Of a stretch of DNA of 20,310 nt, positions 126 to 6,165 are shown one piece after another. The number at the start of each line of letters is the position of its first letter. The stretch's first letter is position 1. The translations under genes were made by a program, and so were the position numbers. Origin of the DNA: a virus; the IMG/VR virus record IMGVR_UViG_3300020437_000092, positions 1 to 20,310 of that record, one strand, 5' to 3'. The notes under the pieces are model-generated. The model made no database searches, had not been told where the DNA came from, and worked only from the letters and a program-made list of their open reading frames with translations.

Positions 126-347
126 TTATAGATCAGCTAAAGGTACGGCATCTAAATCTGGTAAACCTTTCATAAGTTCTCCCATTGGATTATCTTCTAC
201 AGGAATACACTCAACTCCATTATCTTTTAAAAACTGTCTTGCAACATTAAGATCACCTGCTTTTGCATCACCACTTTTTACTTTATCTAGTAGCTCTTTA
301 GCTAACTCATAGTGCAAAGTTTTCATTATCTTTAAACTTTTTTCCAT
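126..347 (-). CDS. Terminase small subunit (DNA maturase A-like)
   Basis: This 73-aa protein is probably the DNA-recognition subunit of the packaging terminase, the equivalent of T7 gp18. The pattern LHYELAKELLDKVKSGDAKA, then GDLNVARQFLKDNGVECIP and a short acidic tail, is one I recognise from small terminases of marine and other T7-like podoviruses: an amphipathic helix, a G-(D/E)-A-x-x-x-DL turn and an ARQFLKDNG helix. The start is ATG at 347-345, preceded by a purine-rich AAGAAG. The large terminase frame begins immediately after its TAA stop. Its length is close to the 89 aa of T7 gp18, but direct similarity to gp18 is weak, so the call rests on pattern plus synteny. Confidence 0.72.
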   Translation of the reverse strand: MEKSLKIMKTLHYELAKELLDKVKSGDAKAGDLNVARQFLKDNGVECIPVEDNPMGELMKGLPDLDAVPLADL

Positions 348-375: not shown

Positions 376-684
376 TCACTTCTGATCTGTCTTGCCAGAT
401 AGAAGATACCTTATTTTACCAAAGAATCCTAGTTTTCTAACCTTTTTGTATAGTCTCATACCCTTTTCATAGCGAATTAATTTTGTTTCTATTTCTGATA
501 TACGCATTATTGCTGAAGTTAAAAGTAAATCTTGTAGCTTAGTGTATTTAACTAAGTCTAAACAGTATGCCCTTACAGCTTCATCAGGCATTTGTTCTGT
601 CTCACGTTGTTTAATCTCAATTTCAAACTCTATTTCTGGCGGTGGGTTGCCAATAAGTACTTTGAAAAATTCTTTATGTGTCAT
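376..684 (-). CDS. Conserved-type phage protein of unknown function
   Basis: This 102-aa protein has no function I can name. It has an acidic N-terminal third (PPPEIEFEIEIKQRETEQ), a helical centre with an MPDEAVRAYCLDLVKYTK stretch followed by LLLTSAIMRISEIETKLI, and a strongly basic C-terminus ending GKTDQK. No signal peptide or transmembrane segment is visible. The ATG at 684-682 lies one base after the TGA of the preceding gene, and the small terminase gene starts 28 bases after its stop, so the three are almost certainly one operon. It sits near where T7 places its Rz-type gene 18.5, but it lacks the N-terminal membrane anchor expected of an Rz protein, so I do not call it a spanin. Confidence 0.6.
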   Translation of the reverse strand: MTHKEFFKVLIGNPPPEIEFEIEIKQRETEQMPDEAVRAYCLDLVKYTKLQDLLLTSAIMRISEIETKLIRYEKGMRLYKKVRKLGFFGKIRYLLSGKTDQK

Positions 685-685
685 A

Positions 686-850
686 TCAGTTCAACTTAGG
701 AAACAACTGTTGCTCCAACATATCAACAGCACGGTCATCTAGCGTGTTAGTGGTTTGTTTACAGATTGCTCTAAGTAAATCAACTACTAATCTCTTCACA
801 GCAGTTGTAGTAAAGAACTTTAGTAGTATTGGTTTTAAAATTTTTAGCAT
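686..850 (-). CDS. Small protein in the holin (gene 17.5) position
   Basis: This 54-aa protein starts at ATG 850-848. It has an N-terminal hydrophobic/basic helix (MLKILKPILLKFFTTTAVKR) and a polar C-terminus with LLRAICKQTTNTLDDRAVDM and a final LFPKLN. An upstream in-frame TTG at 874 would add eight residues; I prefer the ATG because the added residues lack any obvious role and neither start has a clear Shine-Dalgarno. The K(K/Q)TxNTLDDxAV motif is one I recall from small phage proteins found near lysis genes, but I cannot assign a family. It is the first minus-strand gene after the reversed island and is coupled to the next gene (TGA, one base, ATG). A holin-like role is inferred from position only. 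Confidence 0.5.
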   Translation of the reverse strand: MLKILKPILLKFFTTTAVKRLVVDLLRAICKQTTNTLDDRAVDMLEQQLFPKLN

Positions 851-917
851 AATTAGTATTGTGTTACTTTCCAAACATAGCTACATTGTTAGTATTAAAC
901 AAGAGTCTTAACTTTTC
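851..917. promoter_or_regulatory. Divergent intergenic spacer, likely promoters for both directions
   Basis: This 67-base AT-rich gap separates minus-strand gene 850-686 from the plus-strand island starting at 918. Both directions need a start of transcription here, because the minus-strand operon upstream is terminated near 2110. On the plus strand a poor sigma70-like pair can be drawn (TTTCCA, 17 bases, TAGTAT, 4/6 matches each). No clear T7-type phage promoter is visible on either strand. The location is inferred from gene orientation; the exact boxes are speculative. Confidence 0.25.
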
Positions 918-1157
918 ATGGAAGATCAAGAGCCTAGTAAAGTCGAAACCATTGTGAAAGTTTGCGTACTTTTGTGGTCGGCAACGCTATTATCTCTCTC
1001 ATATTATGAACCGCCATCTGGCAAAAAGATAGTAGATTTTGACCCAACATTTATTGCAAGTATTTTCAGCGCGTCAACTGCGTCACTTGGGTTTTCGATA
1101 AAAAAGAAAAAAGACACTATAGTAGATAATAAGAACTCAAAAGTAGGCATCAAATGA
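918..1157 (+). CDS. Small two-helix membrane protein, holin-like in form
   Basis: This 79-aa protein is encoded against the direction of the surrounding late genes. A short acidic N-terminus (MEDQEPSKVE) is followed by a hydrophobic segment at residues 13-28 (KVCVLLWSATLLSLSY), a charged loop, and a second hydrophobic segment at residues 45-60 (IASIFSASTASLGFSI) flanked by KKKKD. Two membrane passes with a basic C-terminal tail is the general form of small phage holins, but no family motif is recognised, so holin is only one option. Its last four bases (ATGA) overlap the start of the next gene, which encodes an exported protein, suggesting translational coupling and a shared envelope function. 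An AAGAG lies about 12 bases before the ATG. Confidence 0.6.
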   Translation: MEDQEPSKVETIVKVCVLLWSATLLSLSYYEPPSGKKIVDFDPTFIASIFSASTASLGFSIKKKKDTIVDNKNSKVGIK

Positions 1158-1513
1158 AGAAACTATTATTACTAGGTTTGTTTTTAGTTGCACCTTGTTA
1201 CGCAAACGGAGTGCCAACGTGGACTACTGGTTCAAGTAATAGAACTGAAAACACTACACAAACTATAACTCGCAGCGTAGTTACAGAAAAATATGGGTCT
1301 ACTATAAATACTTGGGAAGGTTCTAATATAAGCGTGGCTGCATCAGCAGGTATATCGGGCGGTGATGCAGTATTTACAGTTGCAGATACTTCAAAAGATT
1401 GGTCATTAAATGTAACTACAAGAGCATCAGGTTTAATGATTGAAAAGATCACACAAAATGACACGATTAACACTACTAGCGTTATCACTTCTTTGTCTGT
1501 CTTTAGTCAGTAA
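1154..1513 (+). CDS. Exported Thr/Asn/Ser-rich protein with signal peptide, function unknown
   Basis: The 119-aa product begins with a textbook Sec signal peptide, MKKLLLLGLFLVAPCYA, with likely signal peptidase I cleavage before NGVPTW. The Cys at residue 15 is preceded by VAP, which is a poor lipobox because of the Pro, so a lipoprotein is unlikely. The mature part of about 102 aa is rich in Thr, Asn and Ser, predicted by eye to be beta-strand, and contains WTTGSSNRTENTTQTIT and DWSLNVTTRASG. I recall small exported proteins with a WTTGxSNxT pattern in marine cyanophage genomes, but this could not be checked. The ATG overlaps the preceding stop (ATGA) and AGTAGG lies upstream. Its 3' end overlaps the next gene in another frame. 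Periplasmic or cell-surface location is inferred. Confidence 0.7.
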   Translation: MKKLLLLGLFLVAPCYANGVPTWTTGSSNRTENTTQTITRSVVTEKYGSTINTWEGSNISVAASAGISGGDAVFTVADTSKDWSLNVTTRASGLMIEKITQNDTINTTSVITSLSVFSQ

Positions 1514-1985
1514 TAAAGCAAGAGCTGAAGGCGATACAAACGTACAGGCTCAACCAAATGCTATTGGTAATTCCAGTATTATCAATCAGAATATGAATAT
1601 TAATAATGGAATGACAGGTAAACAGCAGTTTGGAAACTTGGTTTGTAGTCAACCTACTTTAGCTGTAACTCCTTTTTATACAGGAAATGATGCTCAAGGA
1701 GAAGATACATATTCTATAAACGAAGGTTGGGGATTACAAATGAGTTTTATGATACCTCTGGGAGATAATCAAACTTGTAACGAATTATCCAAAGTAAAGC
1801 TAGACCTAGCCAAAGAAGAACTAGACAAGCAAGTGCATGATAAACAGCTAGTTCGTGTTTTGAAATGTAGTCAGCTTCACGCAAGCGGTTACATGATAAA
1901 TCCTAAGTCTAAGTTCGCATATATCTGTAATGATGTAATCAATATACGAAGTTATGTTAAAGCTAATCCTGAAAAATTTAAGTAG
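1458..1985 (+). CDS. Exported four-cysteine protein with signal peptide, function unknown
   Basis: From ATG 1458 the product is 175 aa with a signal peptide MTRLTLLALSLLCLSLVSNK followed by ARA and probable cleavage before EGD. An in-frame TTG at 1440 would add MKRSHK, lengthening the basic n-region; it has an AGG about 9 bases upstream and cannot be excluded. The mature chain has an Asn/Gln-rich linker, a segment with TYSINEGWGLQMSFMIPLG that looks like alternating beta strands, and a helical region (LSKVKLDLAKEELDKQVHDK). Four mature cysteines could form two disulphides, fitting a periplasmic location. I recall marine-phage exported proteins with the same Y-S-(V/I)-x-E-x-WG...F-M-(V/I)-PL pattern ending in a VRVLKC helix; unverified. 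The gene overlaps the preceding exported-protein gene by 56 bases in a different frame. Confidence 0.68.
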   Translation: MTRLTLLALSLLCLSLVSNKARAEGDTNVQAQPNAIGNSSIINQNMNINNGMTGKQQFGNLVCSQPTLAVTPFYTGNDAQGEDTYSINEGWGLQMSFMIPLGDNQTCNELSKVKLDLAKEELDKQVHDKQLVRVLKCSQLHASGYMINPKSKFAYICNDVINIRSYVKANPEKFK

Positions 1986-2109
1986 GAACTGACGTTCTGT
2001 AGAGGAGGTATGGAGCTGAAGCTTCCGCTTACATTTGGCATTTCATAAATCCGTTGCTTTGCATTGACGGATTCTTGAGTTCAACGAGATCAAGCAGGTC
2101 TGGTTCCTA
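1983..2109 (+). ncRNA. Candidate structured RNA downstream of the plus-strand island
   Basis: About 125 bases after the last plus-strand gene can fold into a closed multi-branch shape. TAGGAAC (1983-1989) pairs perfectly with GTTCCTA (2103-2109). Inside are AATCCGT/ACGGATT (2048-2054 with 2067-2073, with a further TGC/GCA inside the loop), CTTGA/TCAAG (2074-2078 with 2090-2094) and GGAGCT/AGCTTCC with one bulge (2012-2025). An alternative hairpin, GAAC-TGAC-GTTC (1986-1997), would compete with the closing stem. AGGAGG sits at 2004-2009, only one base from an ATG that opens a 12-codon frame. The minus-strand terminator ends just before this element, so only plus-strand transcripts should carry it. 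It matches no RNA family I recognise, and folding was judged by eye. Confidence 0.35.
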
Positions 2110-2183: not shown

Positions 2184-2651
2184 TTATTTCTTTTTATCCG
2201 CAATCTCTTTCTTAAGTACTTTCTTAAATATCTTTGTCATTATTTTCTTTAGTTGATTAATAACGCTTTGCAAAACTATAGAACCTGTTACTGCTGCTGT
2301 TGCTGATACTCCACTAGCTATAACACTTGATGCTATGACCTCTGGTGCAGGTATAGGCATTTCTCCAAAAAAAGGTATATTAAATGTAGCTACAGGTTCT
2401 TCAGTTGATAAAGTTTCTTTGGGGTTTAGCAGGTCTTTCGGTATTGTTTCTGGTGTTAGCTGTAACTCTTCCTCCTTTGAAGATGATGTTTCTTCTTCAA
2501 CAGACGATTCCTGACCTCCCAGACCCGACTCTACCTGTTCCAGACTTGGAAGAAGTACAGGGTCTAGATATGGAACTTCCGCCACAGGTGGATAAAAAAT
2601 TGTTTTAGGAGGATTTAAGGTTTCTGGTATATCAATATTTGGATAATCCAA
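2184..2651 (-). CDS. Proline-rich protein with C-terminal hydrophobic helix and basic tail
   Basis: This 155-aa protein has three zones. Residues 1-40 are Pro-rich (NPPKTIFYPPVAEVPYLDP). About residues 41-95 are acidic and Ser/Glu-rich. The C-terminal third has an Ala/Ser/Val-rich hydrophobic stretch (VIASSVIASGVSATAAVTGS) that could insert in a membrane, followed by a strongly basic helix ending KKEIADKKK. I recall similarly arranged small proteins beside tail-fibre genes of marine cyanophages, without known function. The start is TTG at 2651, directly abutting the TAA of the upstream gene and preceded by GGGAG; no ATG occurs until deep in the protein. It is the last gene before the terminator at 2169-2109. 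A virion or membrane-contact role is only a guess. Confidence 0.6.
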   Translation of the reverse strand: MDYPNIDIPETLNPPKTIFYPPVAEVPYLDPVLLPSLEQVESGLGGQESSVEEETSSSKEEELQLTPETIPKDLLNPKETLSTEEPVATFNIPFFGEMPIPAPEVIASSVIASGVSATAAVTGSIVLQSVINQLKKIMTKIFKKVLKKEIADKKK

Positions 2652-2913: not shown

Positions 2914-5900
2914 TTAATCTCCTGTAAATTGATTCCAGTTTGATCGAATCCAACAACCATAACTAGAGTTATGATAATCTCCTAACATATACCAACTGTT
3001 ATCTCCCTGTCTATACCACTCTCCTGACTTAGTAATAATAGAACTAGAAGTTTCACTATTACCTGAGTGATGATGTGAAAATCCACCTTCAGTAATTGTT
3101 TCGGGAGTACCCCACCAAGGTACAAAATAATTTGTCCATGAGTTGTTACTGTGGAAATAAGCGTTGTTACCGTCAGCTTCAAGATATGGAGTAGTTACAT
3201 AGTTCCAATAACCTGCAACAAATAGCCTTCCTTCATCATCTTCTAATACAACTCTGTTTGCATTATCACCATCACCACCTCTAGGGTGAATCTTTACAAT
3301 AGTTCCTATTGCTAATTTTTTATAGTTTGCGTGTGATGTATCATCACGGAATGTATGTATAGTTCCAAGTACTTCATTTGGTCTGGAATCATTAGAACCA
3401 TTTGTATTTAAACTTGGGTCTCCGAAATCTCTAAACTGTATCTCTGCACCAAACCAATCTGTACTGTTGTTGTTGGCACTTGTAGTTCTACCAGTTCCTT
3501 GTTGTCCATAATCGTTGTAACCAGTAGCATATATTTTCTGGTTATAGCCAGTAGTTCCTCCATCAGTAATAAAGTATAAAGTTGAATATCTGCAATTATT
3601 ACAAGCCATATATACTACCTTTTGATTATCACTATTCCACATAGTACTTGAGTTAGTTAGTAGCTCTGGCAAAGTCAAGTTGCTTGGACTACTTGCATAA
3701 ACTCCACCACTTGCTCCATGTGCGTGACCATGATAACCACAGAAATATACTTTACCTTCATCAGTTAATATCCAAACTTTACCTTCATCATCACCATCTT
3801 GATTAGCAACAACATGAACTACCTTTTTACCATTAATAGGCGAACCTGTTACTGCTGTCATTTCTTGTGGTGTTGTGTAGTAGCCAGTAGTGTTACCTAA
3901 ACCAAGCTGACCATTACCATTTCTACCCCAAGCCCATAGTTTACCTGACTCTGTTATTGCATAAACGGAAGTATAATAGTAACCACTTGAGCATATATAT
4001 ATAATCTTTTCATTACCAACTCTACTCATAGGCATTTGTTTTGCGTAATAGTTAGTGCTAGTACTGTTATCTCCTAACTGTCCATATCCGTTATAACCCC
4101 ATGTATATAGCTTTCCGTTTGTATCTATACATCTAGTGGAGTAGTAACTATCGTTATCTCCTGAGAAAGTATGAGCATTAGAAAACTCCATCATTTTAAT
4201 TTTAGGGTGATTTGCTCCTGTTAATCTTGCTCCTGAATCATCATAAAAAACAACACCCATAGCTGCTGCGTTTAAATCCCAAGTAGTACCATTACCCCAT
4301 ATTCCATAACCTGCATAACCACCCGCCATGACCATGCCATTTTCAAACAACTGAAAACCATGCCTACCAGATTTGTGCATTTGCATTAATCTAGGCCATA
4401 AATATTTTACTTTTCCATCAGCATCATATAAATCAAGAGTATTACCGTTTAAATCAGTTAATAAGTGTGCATAGTCAGGGTGTCCCGCTAGTGCTTCCTC
4501 CCAGAATTTAGGTGTTCTATTGCACCCATCAGCAGGGTAACTATGAGTTCCGCTATAAGCACTATGACCATAAACTCCATAGCCACTACCATAAGTGTAA
4601 TCATAACCACTTGTATGATAGTGATTACCAAATTCAAAATACTTTCTCTTACCTAAAGCACCTGCTCTTCTATAACCTGCCATGGTGCAACCATATAAAA
4701 ATCCTCTACCACTTTTTTTCAGGTATGCAGGTAAAGCCCATAGACTTTCTGTATAGTTATTTATTGTTGCGTTTGGAAATAGACAGAATCCTTTGACTAA
4801 ATCTTTTGCTACTTCATAAGGCTGTTGAACTACATCTTTTTTATAAACAGTAGTACCCGCCCAAGAAGGAACTAACTTTAAATCTTTTAAAGATAAAGTT
4901 ATCATATCCGCTTGGTTTGCTTCATCACGAATAACAACGCTAGTTAATGTACTATCCGCAGGGGGTGTGTAAGTTATCGTTCCTCCGTTAGTCACATTTT
5001 GAGGTGCAGCACTACCGTCTGTTATTCTTCCACCGTTACCTGCTCCGCTATATCCACTAGCAGCAGGGTTTTTAACTGAATAAGTTAAACCGTTAGCAGG
5101 GAAAGTAAATGAATATGATTTTCCTTTTGTGATATTGATGCTTGATGTTGAAATATTGTTTCTATATATTCTTGGTATTTCTGAACCTGTAGCAGAAGTA
5201 CTGTATGAAGTGTTTATCGTACCAACTAACATGGCACTATGAACAGAACAACCATATTGTAAAATATATAAAGCAGGTGCTTTTGGAGTAAATGTAACTG
5301 TTGCTCCCGCCTGACCTGCTGTACCGTTTCTTGTAATTCCGAAATCAGATTCACTATATCCACTACCATTAACGAAGGCATAAGATTGAGTAGATGACCC
5401 ATACCAATATTTAAAAGCAAAAACGTGGCCTGTATTACTAGCGTCACTAACATCAAAAACATATTGTGAGCCAACTTTAATAGTTATTGCAGGTCTTTCA
5501 ACAGTTCCAGAAAGACTACCGCCACTAAGATAAAATTGATTTGCACTATTAGTACCTGTTGCAACTGTAACTGTATAATTAACAGATTCATAGGTTTCTC
5601 TTTCATCACCTGTTACCCATGCGTGTCTAGTTCCTTGAACAAGTACTGGATTATATTCATAGTTACCTTCATTTGCTATATCTTCTAAAGGTTTTTCTAC
5701 TACACTTAACTGAGAACCTACTGGACCAATAGGCAACTGAACATTTGTTGTATCATCATTATCTCTAAATATCATTCCTCCTGACGCATTTAATACAGCA
5801 GCACTAGGAGCATTAACTAAAGTAGCAAAATTAGAATCAAGGCTAGGGTTACTAGATTGAGAACTAATAACATAGTTTAAAACTGTGCCTTTATAAATAT

Positions 5901-6165
5901 AAGTTGCGTTGTTGTATGTAACTAAATCACCTTTTCTAAACCCTTGACCGAATGAATAATTACCTCTGTAATTAAGACCACTAGCCATTACGTTGTAATT
6001 AGTGCCATCTTGTGACGGTGCTATGCTTTGAGTACTAGGTAAATCCTGTACTACTACATAACTTGTGCCATCAAAATAAACAATGTCATCTACTTCATAT
6101 GCTGTGTTAGCAGCCCAAGTTCCTTTCCATTGAAACTTCAGTTTACCTAAATCAATTTGTGCCAT
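2914..6165 (-). CDS. Large modular tail fibre with cupredoxin-like domain and RCC1-type repeats
   Basis: The 1083-aa protein is the probable host-recognition fibre. Residues 13-45 and 64-95 are chitin-binding-like repeats (WKGTWAANTAYEVDDIVYFD; YRGNYSFGQGFRKGDLVTYN); a third, degenerate copy lies at about 434-455. Residues 196-318 resemble a cupredoxin sandwich with TGHVFAF and YGCSVHSAM, giving His247, Cys306, His309 and Met312 as candidate type 1 copper ligands. Residues 326-425 form another beta domain. Residues 512-546 are rich in His, Tyr and Gly. From about 684 to 1070 come RCC1-type propeller blades (KLYTWGYNGYGQLGDNSTST, KLWAWGRNGNGQLGLGNTTG, KIYATGYNDYGQQGTG). The gene starts 2 bases after the gp17-like gene, with no Shine-Dalgarno. 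A fibre role is inferred from position, size and the binding-type modules. Confidence 0.8.
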   Translation of the reverse strand: MAQIDLGKLKFQWKGTWAANTAYEVDDIVYFDGTSYVVVQDLPSTQSIAPSQDGTNYNVMASGLNYRGNYSFGQGFRKGDLVTYNNATYIYKGTVLNYVISSQSSNPSLDSNFATLVNAPSAAVLNASGGMIFRDNDDTTNVQLPIGPVGSQLSVVEKPLEDIANEGNYEYNPVLVQGTRHAWVTGDERETYESVNYTVTVATGTNSANQFYLSGGSLSGTVERPAITIKVGSQYVFDVSDASNTGHVFAFKYWYGSSTQSYAFVNGSGYSESDFGITRNGTAGQAGATVTFTPKAPALYILQYGCSVHSAMLVGTINTSYSTSATGSEIPRIYRNNISTSSINITKGKSYSFTFPANGLTYSVKNPAASGYSGAGNGGRITDGSAAPQNVTNGGTITYTPPADSTLTSVVIRDEANQADMITLSLKDLKLVPSWAGTTVYKKDVVQQPYEVAKDLVKGFCLFPNATINNYTESLWALPAYLKKSGRGFLYGCTMAGYRRAGALGKRKYFEFGNHYHTSGYDYTYGSGYGVYGHSAYSGTHSYPADGCNRTPKFWEEALAGHPDYAHLLTDLNGNTLDLYDADGKVKYLWPRLMQMHKSGRHGFQLFENGMVMAGGYAGYGIWGNGTTWDLNAAAMGVVFYDDSGARLTGANHPKIKMMEFSNAHTFSGDNDSYYSTRCIDTNGKLYTWGYNGYGQLGDNSTSTNYYAKQMPMSRVGNEKIIYICSSGYYYTSVYAITESGKLWAWGRNGNGQLGLGNTTGYYTTPQEMTAVTGSPINGKKVVHVVANQDGDDEGKVWILTDEGKVYFCGYHGHAHGASGGVYASSPSNLTLPELLTNSSTMWNSDNQKVVYMACNNCRYSTLYFITDGGTTGYNQKIYATGYNDYGQQGTGRTTSANNNSTDWFGAEIQFRDFGDPSLNTNGSNDSRPNEVLGTIHTFRDDTSHANYKKLAIGTIVKIHPRGGDGDNANRVVLEDDEGRLFVAGYWNYVTTPYLEADGNNAYFHSNNSWTNYFVPWWGTPETITEGGFSHHHSGNSETSSSIITKSGEWYRQGDNSWYMLGDYHNSSYGCWIRSNWNQFTGD

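Follow-up and report, generated by a model that had tools for sequence, protein, structure and literature searches.

In phage T7 the holin gene 17.5, terS (gene 18) and the spanin genes 18.5/18.7 lie together. A survey by Kongari et al. (2018; PMC6139136) identified 91 phages in which no spanins were found, including 20 that had been isolated on Prochlorococcus or Synechococcus; the authors suggested that the outer membrane of the host may be fragile. Their spanin-less list includes P-SSP7, P-SSM2, P-SSM4, P-HM1, Syn1, Syn9 and S-RSM4, and the genes of the cassette described here were present in all seven (7/7). Among the cyanopodoviruses, P-SCSP1/2 belong to the MPP-C lineage and lack a DNA polymerase gene (PMC9860041). 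The cassette consists of three genes (the trio) and is common to podo-, sipho- and myoviruses of marine cyanobacteria. Families represented in it and next to it (DUF6322, DUF6450, phrog_650, 848, 1755, 721, 2738 and 9426) are already catalogued as proteins of unknown function; the literature searched contained no account of the linkage of the trio as a module, of the overlap that switches frame or of the RNA downstream.

The DNA analysed here (the window) is a viral stretch of 20,310 nucleotides. Its nearest named relative was Prochlorococcus phage P-SCSP2, with 88% DNA identity over the trio region, followed by the P-SCSP1 isolates and P-RSP2; as judged from its sequence, the window is a Prochlorococcus podovirus contig of the MPP-C lineage. 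This replaces the pelagiphage context proposed in an earlier, sequence-only reading, which had rightly recognised the phage as T7-like. The same reading had described three plus-strand genes flanked by minus-strand genes, encoding a two-helix membrane protein and then two exported proteins. The genes lie as described (Table 1), and the nature of their products was borne out by hydropathy analysis and A-x-A sites; the signal-peptide cleavage sites in genes 2 and 3 were taken from these motifs by inspection. On the fibre side, the fibre protein (window 2914-6165, minus strand) contains RCC1-like repeats, TESGKLWAWGRNGNGQLGLGNT, read by eye.

Table 1. Features of the trio and its surroundings in the window.
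Feature	Position	Strand	Evidence
Terminase small subunit (terS)	126..347	-	PF11123 69 bits; phrog_891
102-aa protein, also in cyanosiphovirus-type contigs beside the same cassette	376..684	-	Profile E 2e-23 to 1e-9 in L291, L276, L298, L004
p2738, 62-aa amphipathic protein, conserved cassette neighbour	686..874	-	phrog_2738/402
Gene 1, DUF6450 (PF20048), 79 aa, two predicted membrane helices	918..1157	+	PF20048, phrog_21865, phrog_721
Gene 2, exported beta-rich, DUF6322-related, 119 aa	1154..1513	+	phrog_650 E 2.4e-14
Gene 3, exported four-cysteine protein, 175 aa	1458..1985	+	phrog_1755 E 3.2e-22, phrog_848 E 3.5e-21
56-base gene 2/gene 3 overlap, encodes gene 3 signal peptide out of frame	1458..1513	+	
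Structured RNA element	1983..2109	+	Invariant core in 11 other contigs; also in P-SCSP2
Proline-rich protein, one C-terminal hydrophobic segment, conserved fibre-side neighbour	2184..2651	-	phrog_9426; PSSP7_042 homologue

Gene 1 was assigned to DUF6450 with a score of 63.8 bits against PF20048 (curated cut-off 25). Hydropathy analysis indicated two membrane segments, with peaks at residues 11 and 45, and the C-terminal tail is charged and lysine-rich. A short protein with two membrane helices and a charged C-terminus has the features of class II holins, and on these sequence features gene 1 is holin-like. The polypeptide shares 97.5% amino acid identity with its counterpart in siphophage MED4-184, while DNA identity is just 80%. 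A literature search for DUF6450 found no paper. In several MPP-C relatives (L003, L022, L023, L025, L029, L033, L042 and L044) a hairpin resembling a terminator, showing compensating changes and followed by a T-run, ends a few bases short of the start codon of gene 1. It might be an attenuator in which the U-tract has a second role in translation; no such hairpin was present just upstream of gene 1 in the window. Around the trio of the window, searches for terminators and for sigma-70 promoters gave nothing above chance. A candidate conserved phage promoter upstream of gene 1, TGTTACTTTCCAAACATA, occurred only once in the window and is not a repeated promoter.

Gene 2 begins with a hydrophobic segment identified by hydropathy and a signal peptide with cleavage between PCYA and NG, and ends in a conserved C-terminus, SLSVFSQ. 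The window protein itself had no Pfam match and stayed below the curated cut-off of DUF6322 (PF19847), a model that matched 57 of 80 aligned relatives at E values up to 1 (best 7.3e-17); kinship with DUF6322 is thus supported, at scores for the window protein that fall short of membership. An AlphaFold2 model built from 80 sequences (pLDDT 90, pTM 0.49) was almost all-beta, with two strands of 23-24 residues, contributed by both ends of the chain, forming a long beta-ribbon joined by a small domain. With a best E of 0.013 at a probability of 0.41, the nearest solved folds in Foldseek were lower-collar proteins of phages and stems of ring-forming pores, which we treat as a lead only because long hairpins match such stems easily.

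The signal peptide of gene 3, MTRLTLLALSLLCLSLVSNKARA followed by EG, was likewise recognised by inspection and coincides with an N-terminal hydrophobic segment in the hydropathy profile. Four cysteines are invariant in 91 relatives and, apart from these and a few other residues, the protein evolves fast. The AlphaFold2 model (91 sequences; pLDDT 68, pTM 0.38) comprised a beta-hairpin of two 15-residue strands and a helix of 39 residues. A fold search gave no significant match; its weak matches included OprN-type, TOprJ, SilC and OprM chains. Weak matches to the outer membrane efflux family OEP (PF02321, TolC) were obtained for 22 of the 91 relatives at E values up to 1 (best E 0.013), gene 3 of the window had none, the family cut-off was not reached, and profile-profile comparison by hhalign gave probabilities of 25-51%. 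Kinship of gene 3 to the OEP/TolC family is suggested but not proven by this evidence, and the structures predicted for genes 2 and 3 weakly suggest ring- or barrel-forming envelope proteins. A literature search for the function of cyanophage gp165 found no paper. Relatives of gene 3 are also encoded on 11 contigs (L226-L236) from cyanobacterial and other marine genome assemblies, possibly phage sequence. In P-GSP1 (L013, 1154-1813, minus strand) gene 3 continues at its C-terminus into a fused p2738 homologue, hinting that the two proteins act together.

The three genes are joined by the two overlaps that the sequence-only reading had pointed out. Genes 1 and 2 share four bases (ATGA), an arrangement kept in 30/30 MPP-C loci where gene 1 was found, and gene 3 starts within gene 2 in the +1 frame, the overlap being 56 bases in the window; the open +1 frame inside the window's gene 2 exceeds those in synonymous-codon shuffles (p = 0.004). 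Overlap of genes 2 and 3 was seen in nearly all relatives and is conserved in podo- and myoviruses, with a reading frame that depends on the lineage. MPP-C loci use the +1 frame and keep an ATG that precedes the reference point in the signal peptide by 12-13 codons. Myovirus-type loci are in the -1 frame in 73 of 77 cases, with an ATG at -16 spanning the xxA-TGG codon pair of gene 2, and in the +1 frame with TTG starts in the remaining four. MPP-A/B podoviruses are also in the -1 frame; their candidate starts lie at -17 or -32, and those of the NATL group at -64 and -116. In NATL-type loci (L006, L011, L063, L068, L073, L080-L090) this frame is open through all of gene 2, for up to 124 codons, with per-locus shuffle p values mostly <0.05. 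One gene 2 3' end thus supplies the signal peptide of gene 3 in two reading frames, according to lineage. The start of gene 3 is missed or misplaced in several database entries since, with starts so varied, entries either truncate the gene (PSSP7_045) or extend it across gene 2 (the gp165 entries of NATL1A-7 and 9515-10a). In P-RSP2 the trio is inverted and the -1 frame nevertheless retained, which suggests that the inversion is older than the frame change. A programmed -1 frameshift fusing genes 2 and 3 was considered and rejected: no slippery heptamer was seen near the overlap, the frame varies by lineage, and the A-x-A site implies an N-terminal signal peptide.

Across cyanophage families the genes travel as a unit; they were neither scattered nor absent at random, which would have been the main outcome refuting the sequence-only reading. 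When whole records were searched, the gene 3 profile and DUF6450 were found in the same 21 of 27 cyanophage records and both were absent from the same six, a count in which 16 records had been chosen for matches to gene 1, 2 or 3 and related phages are mixed. The DUF6322 model matched 14 of the 21 cassette-bearing records; the other seven are all podoviruses, and their gene 2 was recovered with tblastn or recognised as an open reading frame ending in SVFSQ. Because of the preselection, the fair test of co-occurrence is provided by the 11 records that came from the list of spanin-less phages in the literature, five of which contained gene 3, gene 2 and DUF6450 and six none of them; the five positives are not independent, as all are T4-like cyanomyoviruses. 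In cyanomyoviruses the cassette is located near psbA or talC, and gene 2 is preceded by a gene for an exported protein that resembles gene 2 by eye.

The orientation of the trio separates the podovirus lineages. In 50 MPP-A/B-like loci all genes run in one direction, in the order fibre, PSSP7_042, gene 1, gene 2, gene 3, p2738, terS, HNH and terL. MPP-C and P-RSP2-like loci have the same neighbours on either side and the trio alone reversed: it is opposite to the fibre and p2738 genes in every such locus with neighbours, and in 0/50 MPP-A/B-like loci. Siphovirus contigs of the MED4-184 type carry the 102-aa gene and p2738 on the minus strand, then DUF6450, a gene 2 relative, gene 2 and gene 3 on the plus strand, and after gene 3 the RNA, followed by the proline-rich gene and fibres on the minus strand. 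Since both flanks match the window, the reversed layout is shared with siphoviruses, and it has probably been exchanged as a module between phage families, as far as gene order and sequence indicate; contigs other than the MPP-C and MED4-184-type ones were identified by gene content only. The reversed island noted in the sequence-only reading is therefore real and is not peculiar to this genome, being the layout of MPP-C, P-RSP2 and cyanosiphovirus-type contigs. An invertible DNA switch was rejected, since the trio is not bounded by long inverted repeats. In three loci (L003, which is P-SCSP1g, L035 and L036) terS and terL are on the strand of the trio, a second rearrangement of the late region.

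The structured RNA proposed to follow the trio is supported by an element of 127 nt whose core is invariant in 11 further contigs and which P-SCSP2 has as well. The UAG stop codon of gene 3 falls within the closing helix of the element, UAGGAAC..GUUCCUA. Searches with three separate exact patterns all retrieved the same 11 contigs (L262-L272), always at the end of gene 3, with a long form of 127-162 nt. The core is unchanged in 12 aligned copies while the adjoining gene 3 varies; in a peripheral hairpin, which does vary, three pairs show paired changes. A 66-nt relative was found in 26 contigs (L273-L298), two of MPP-C and 24 others, including siphovirus-type contigs. It has the ends ACTGACGYTCT..GAGG.GGTA and AGGTCT.GTT in common with the long form, and its sameness is partly forced because the search pattern was an exact 27-mer. 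At least 21 of the 26 have gene 3 upstream on the same strand, at a distance of -3 to 203 nt, and among the other five at least one contig ends too early to tell. The 66-nt form fits a three-way junction in which one helix contains two covarying pairs; 0/500 shuffles reached its covariation score, which counts as support and not proof, as related sequences can exceed shuffles. A model of the 66-nt form found the window element (22 bits, E 0.03) as its only other match in 0.7 Mb. No Rfam 15 family matched the element at its gathering score. In named phages the 66-nt form gave no blastn match, and no model match in 28 records, a search that under-calls the long form, P-SCSP2 being a long-form carrier that was also missed. 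Many MPP-C relatives have other sequences in the place of the element. The downstream RNA is a strongly conserved element tied to the cassette and without an Rfam family. The idea that it is an attachment site was dropped after a search of 41 Prochlorococcus genomes, run without a positive control, gave no match.

Based on these sequence comparisons, we regard the trio as a candidate lysis or outer-membrane module of cyanophages that is not of the spanin type, and assign this reading a probability of about 0.42. Lysis is favoured because of the T7-like position (in MPP-A/B podoviruses the trio is found between the fibre genes and terS, where T7 has its lysis genes), the holin-like gene 1, the exported overlapping pair and the seven spanin-less carriers. 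It is weakened by the psbA/talC location in myoviruses, the closeness to fibre genes and six spanin-less cyanophages without the cassette (P60, Syn5, S-CBS4, Pf-WMP4, PSS2 and S-PM2); because of these six, the cassette is not a general answer to spanin-less lysis. As a lysis module, gene 1 would act as a holin-like two-helix protein of the inner membrane. The products of genes 2 and 3, their translation probably coupled by the overlap, would be exported by Sec, and gene 3, with its four conserved cysteines, would be oxidised in the periplasm. The two might then assemble, at the outer membrane or across it, into a multimeric complex of beta structure, gene 3 contributing an outer-membrane-length beta-hairpin on a long helix and gene 2 a two-stranded beta-ribbon, and after holin triggering and wall degradation this complex could rupture or permeabilise the outer membrane. 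Where the cassette is inverted, as in MPP-C and P-RSP2, it must be transcribed separately. A named, conserved candidate in seven checked spanin-less phages makes the question of the outer-membrane step testable.

Superinfection exclusion or surface remodelling, in which the products of genes 2 and 3 would reach the outer membrane during infection and hide or change the receptor there, gene 1 serving as their membrane partner, cannot be told apart from lysis, or from each other, by sequence; we consider such a role rather unlikely. The cassette has tail-fibre genes beside it in loci of the podo- and siphovirus types, moves between phage families (as the 97.5% identity of gene 1 to MED4-184 illustrates) and has many gene 1 alleles in MPP-C; the rapid evolution of gene 3 outside the cysteines and a few residues would also fit, and a transcription unit of its own in MPP-C would allow early expression. 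In MPP-A/B, however, the trio sits in the late operon and runs in the direction of the fibre and terminase genes; the late expression predicted from this would come too late for exclusion, and the holin-like partner would be unexplained. To extend the lysis reading into a general scheme, in which cyanophage families share an undescribed lysis module of a holin-like protein and two exported proteins from overlapping genes that jointly build a complex breaching the outer membrane and so replace spanins, with a nearly invariant structured RNA that marks the 3' end in some lineages and controls or delimits the cassette, is unlikely to be correct as a whole.

Decidedly unlikely, in our estimate, is a channel in the outer membrane or across the envelope that would serve uptake or export during infection and consist of the TolC-like hairpin and helix of gene 3 and the beta-ribbon of gene 2. 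The weak OEP and fold matches of gene 3, the resemblance of gene 2 to ring-pore stems and the psbA/talC neighbours in myoviruses point in this direction, but no sequence or fold match was significant, and gene 3 of the window had no OEP match. Virion- or fibre-associated accessory proteins would account for the fixed neighbourhood with fibre genes; both proteins carry Sec signal peptides, whereas tailed phages assemble in the cytoplasm, and gp32-gp35 go unmentioned in the text of the P-SCSP1u cryo-EM paper (PMC10575957), making this role very improbable. A divergent canonical two-component spanin pair, suggested by overlapping exported genes beside a holin-like gene, is scarcely credible, being contradicted by the missing lipobox, the missing uncleaved N-terminal anchor with coiled coil and the all-beta structure predicted for gene 2.

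Among known systems, the proteins of the trio and its neighbours fall into the same families as the catalogued DUF6322, DUF6450 and phrog entries, or into related ones. Like the class II holins T7 gp17.5 and S21, gene 1 is shorter than 100 aa, has two predicted membrane helices and ends in a charged tail, and in MPP-A/B it is placed after the fibre genes; it differs in that DUF6450 lies 2-9 kb from the gene 2/gene 3 pair in cyanomyoviruses. Gene 3 shares with TolC/OprM (OEP, PF02321) a membrane-length beta-hairpin with an IPLG/VPLD turn at its end, followed by a long helix, but has one hairpin only, about 150 aa, four cysteines and no match above the family cut-off. With two-component spanins (lambda Rz/Rz1, T7 18.5/18.7) the trio has in common two exported envelope proteins encoded by overlapping genes in different frames, and a place near a holin-like gene and the terminase in T7-like phages. 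The earlier caution against calling the pair spanins was justified, as lipobox and anchored coiled coil are absent from both families. In aligned relatives the gene 3 signal peptide ends in A-x-A followed by E/Q, with no cysteine at +1 as in an o-spanin lipobox, and the LVAPC of gene 2 has proline at -1 and a cysteine that is not conserved. Instead of an inner-membrane-anchored coiled coil as in i-spanins, gene 2 is beta-rich and gene 3 combines its hairpin and four cysteines with a 39-residue helix, both behind cleavable signal peptides. Neither protein has the lipobox and C-terminal membrane segment of unimolecular spanins. On sequence grounds the trio may work like a spanin system, without being a member of the spanins.
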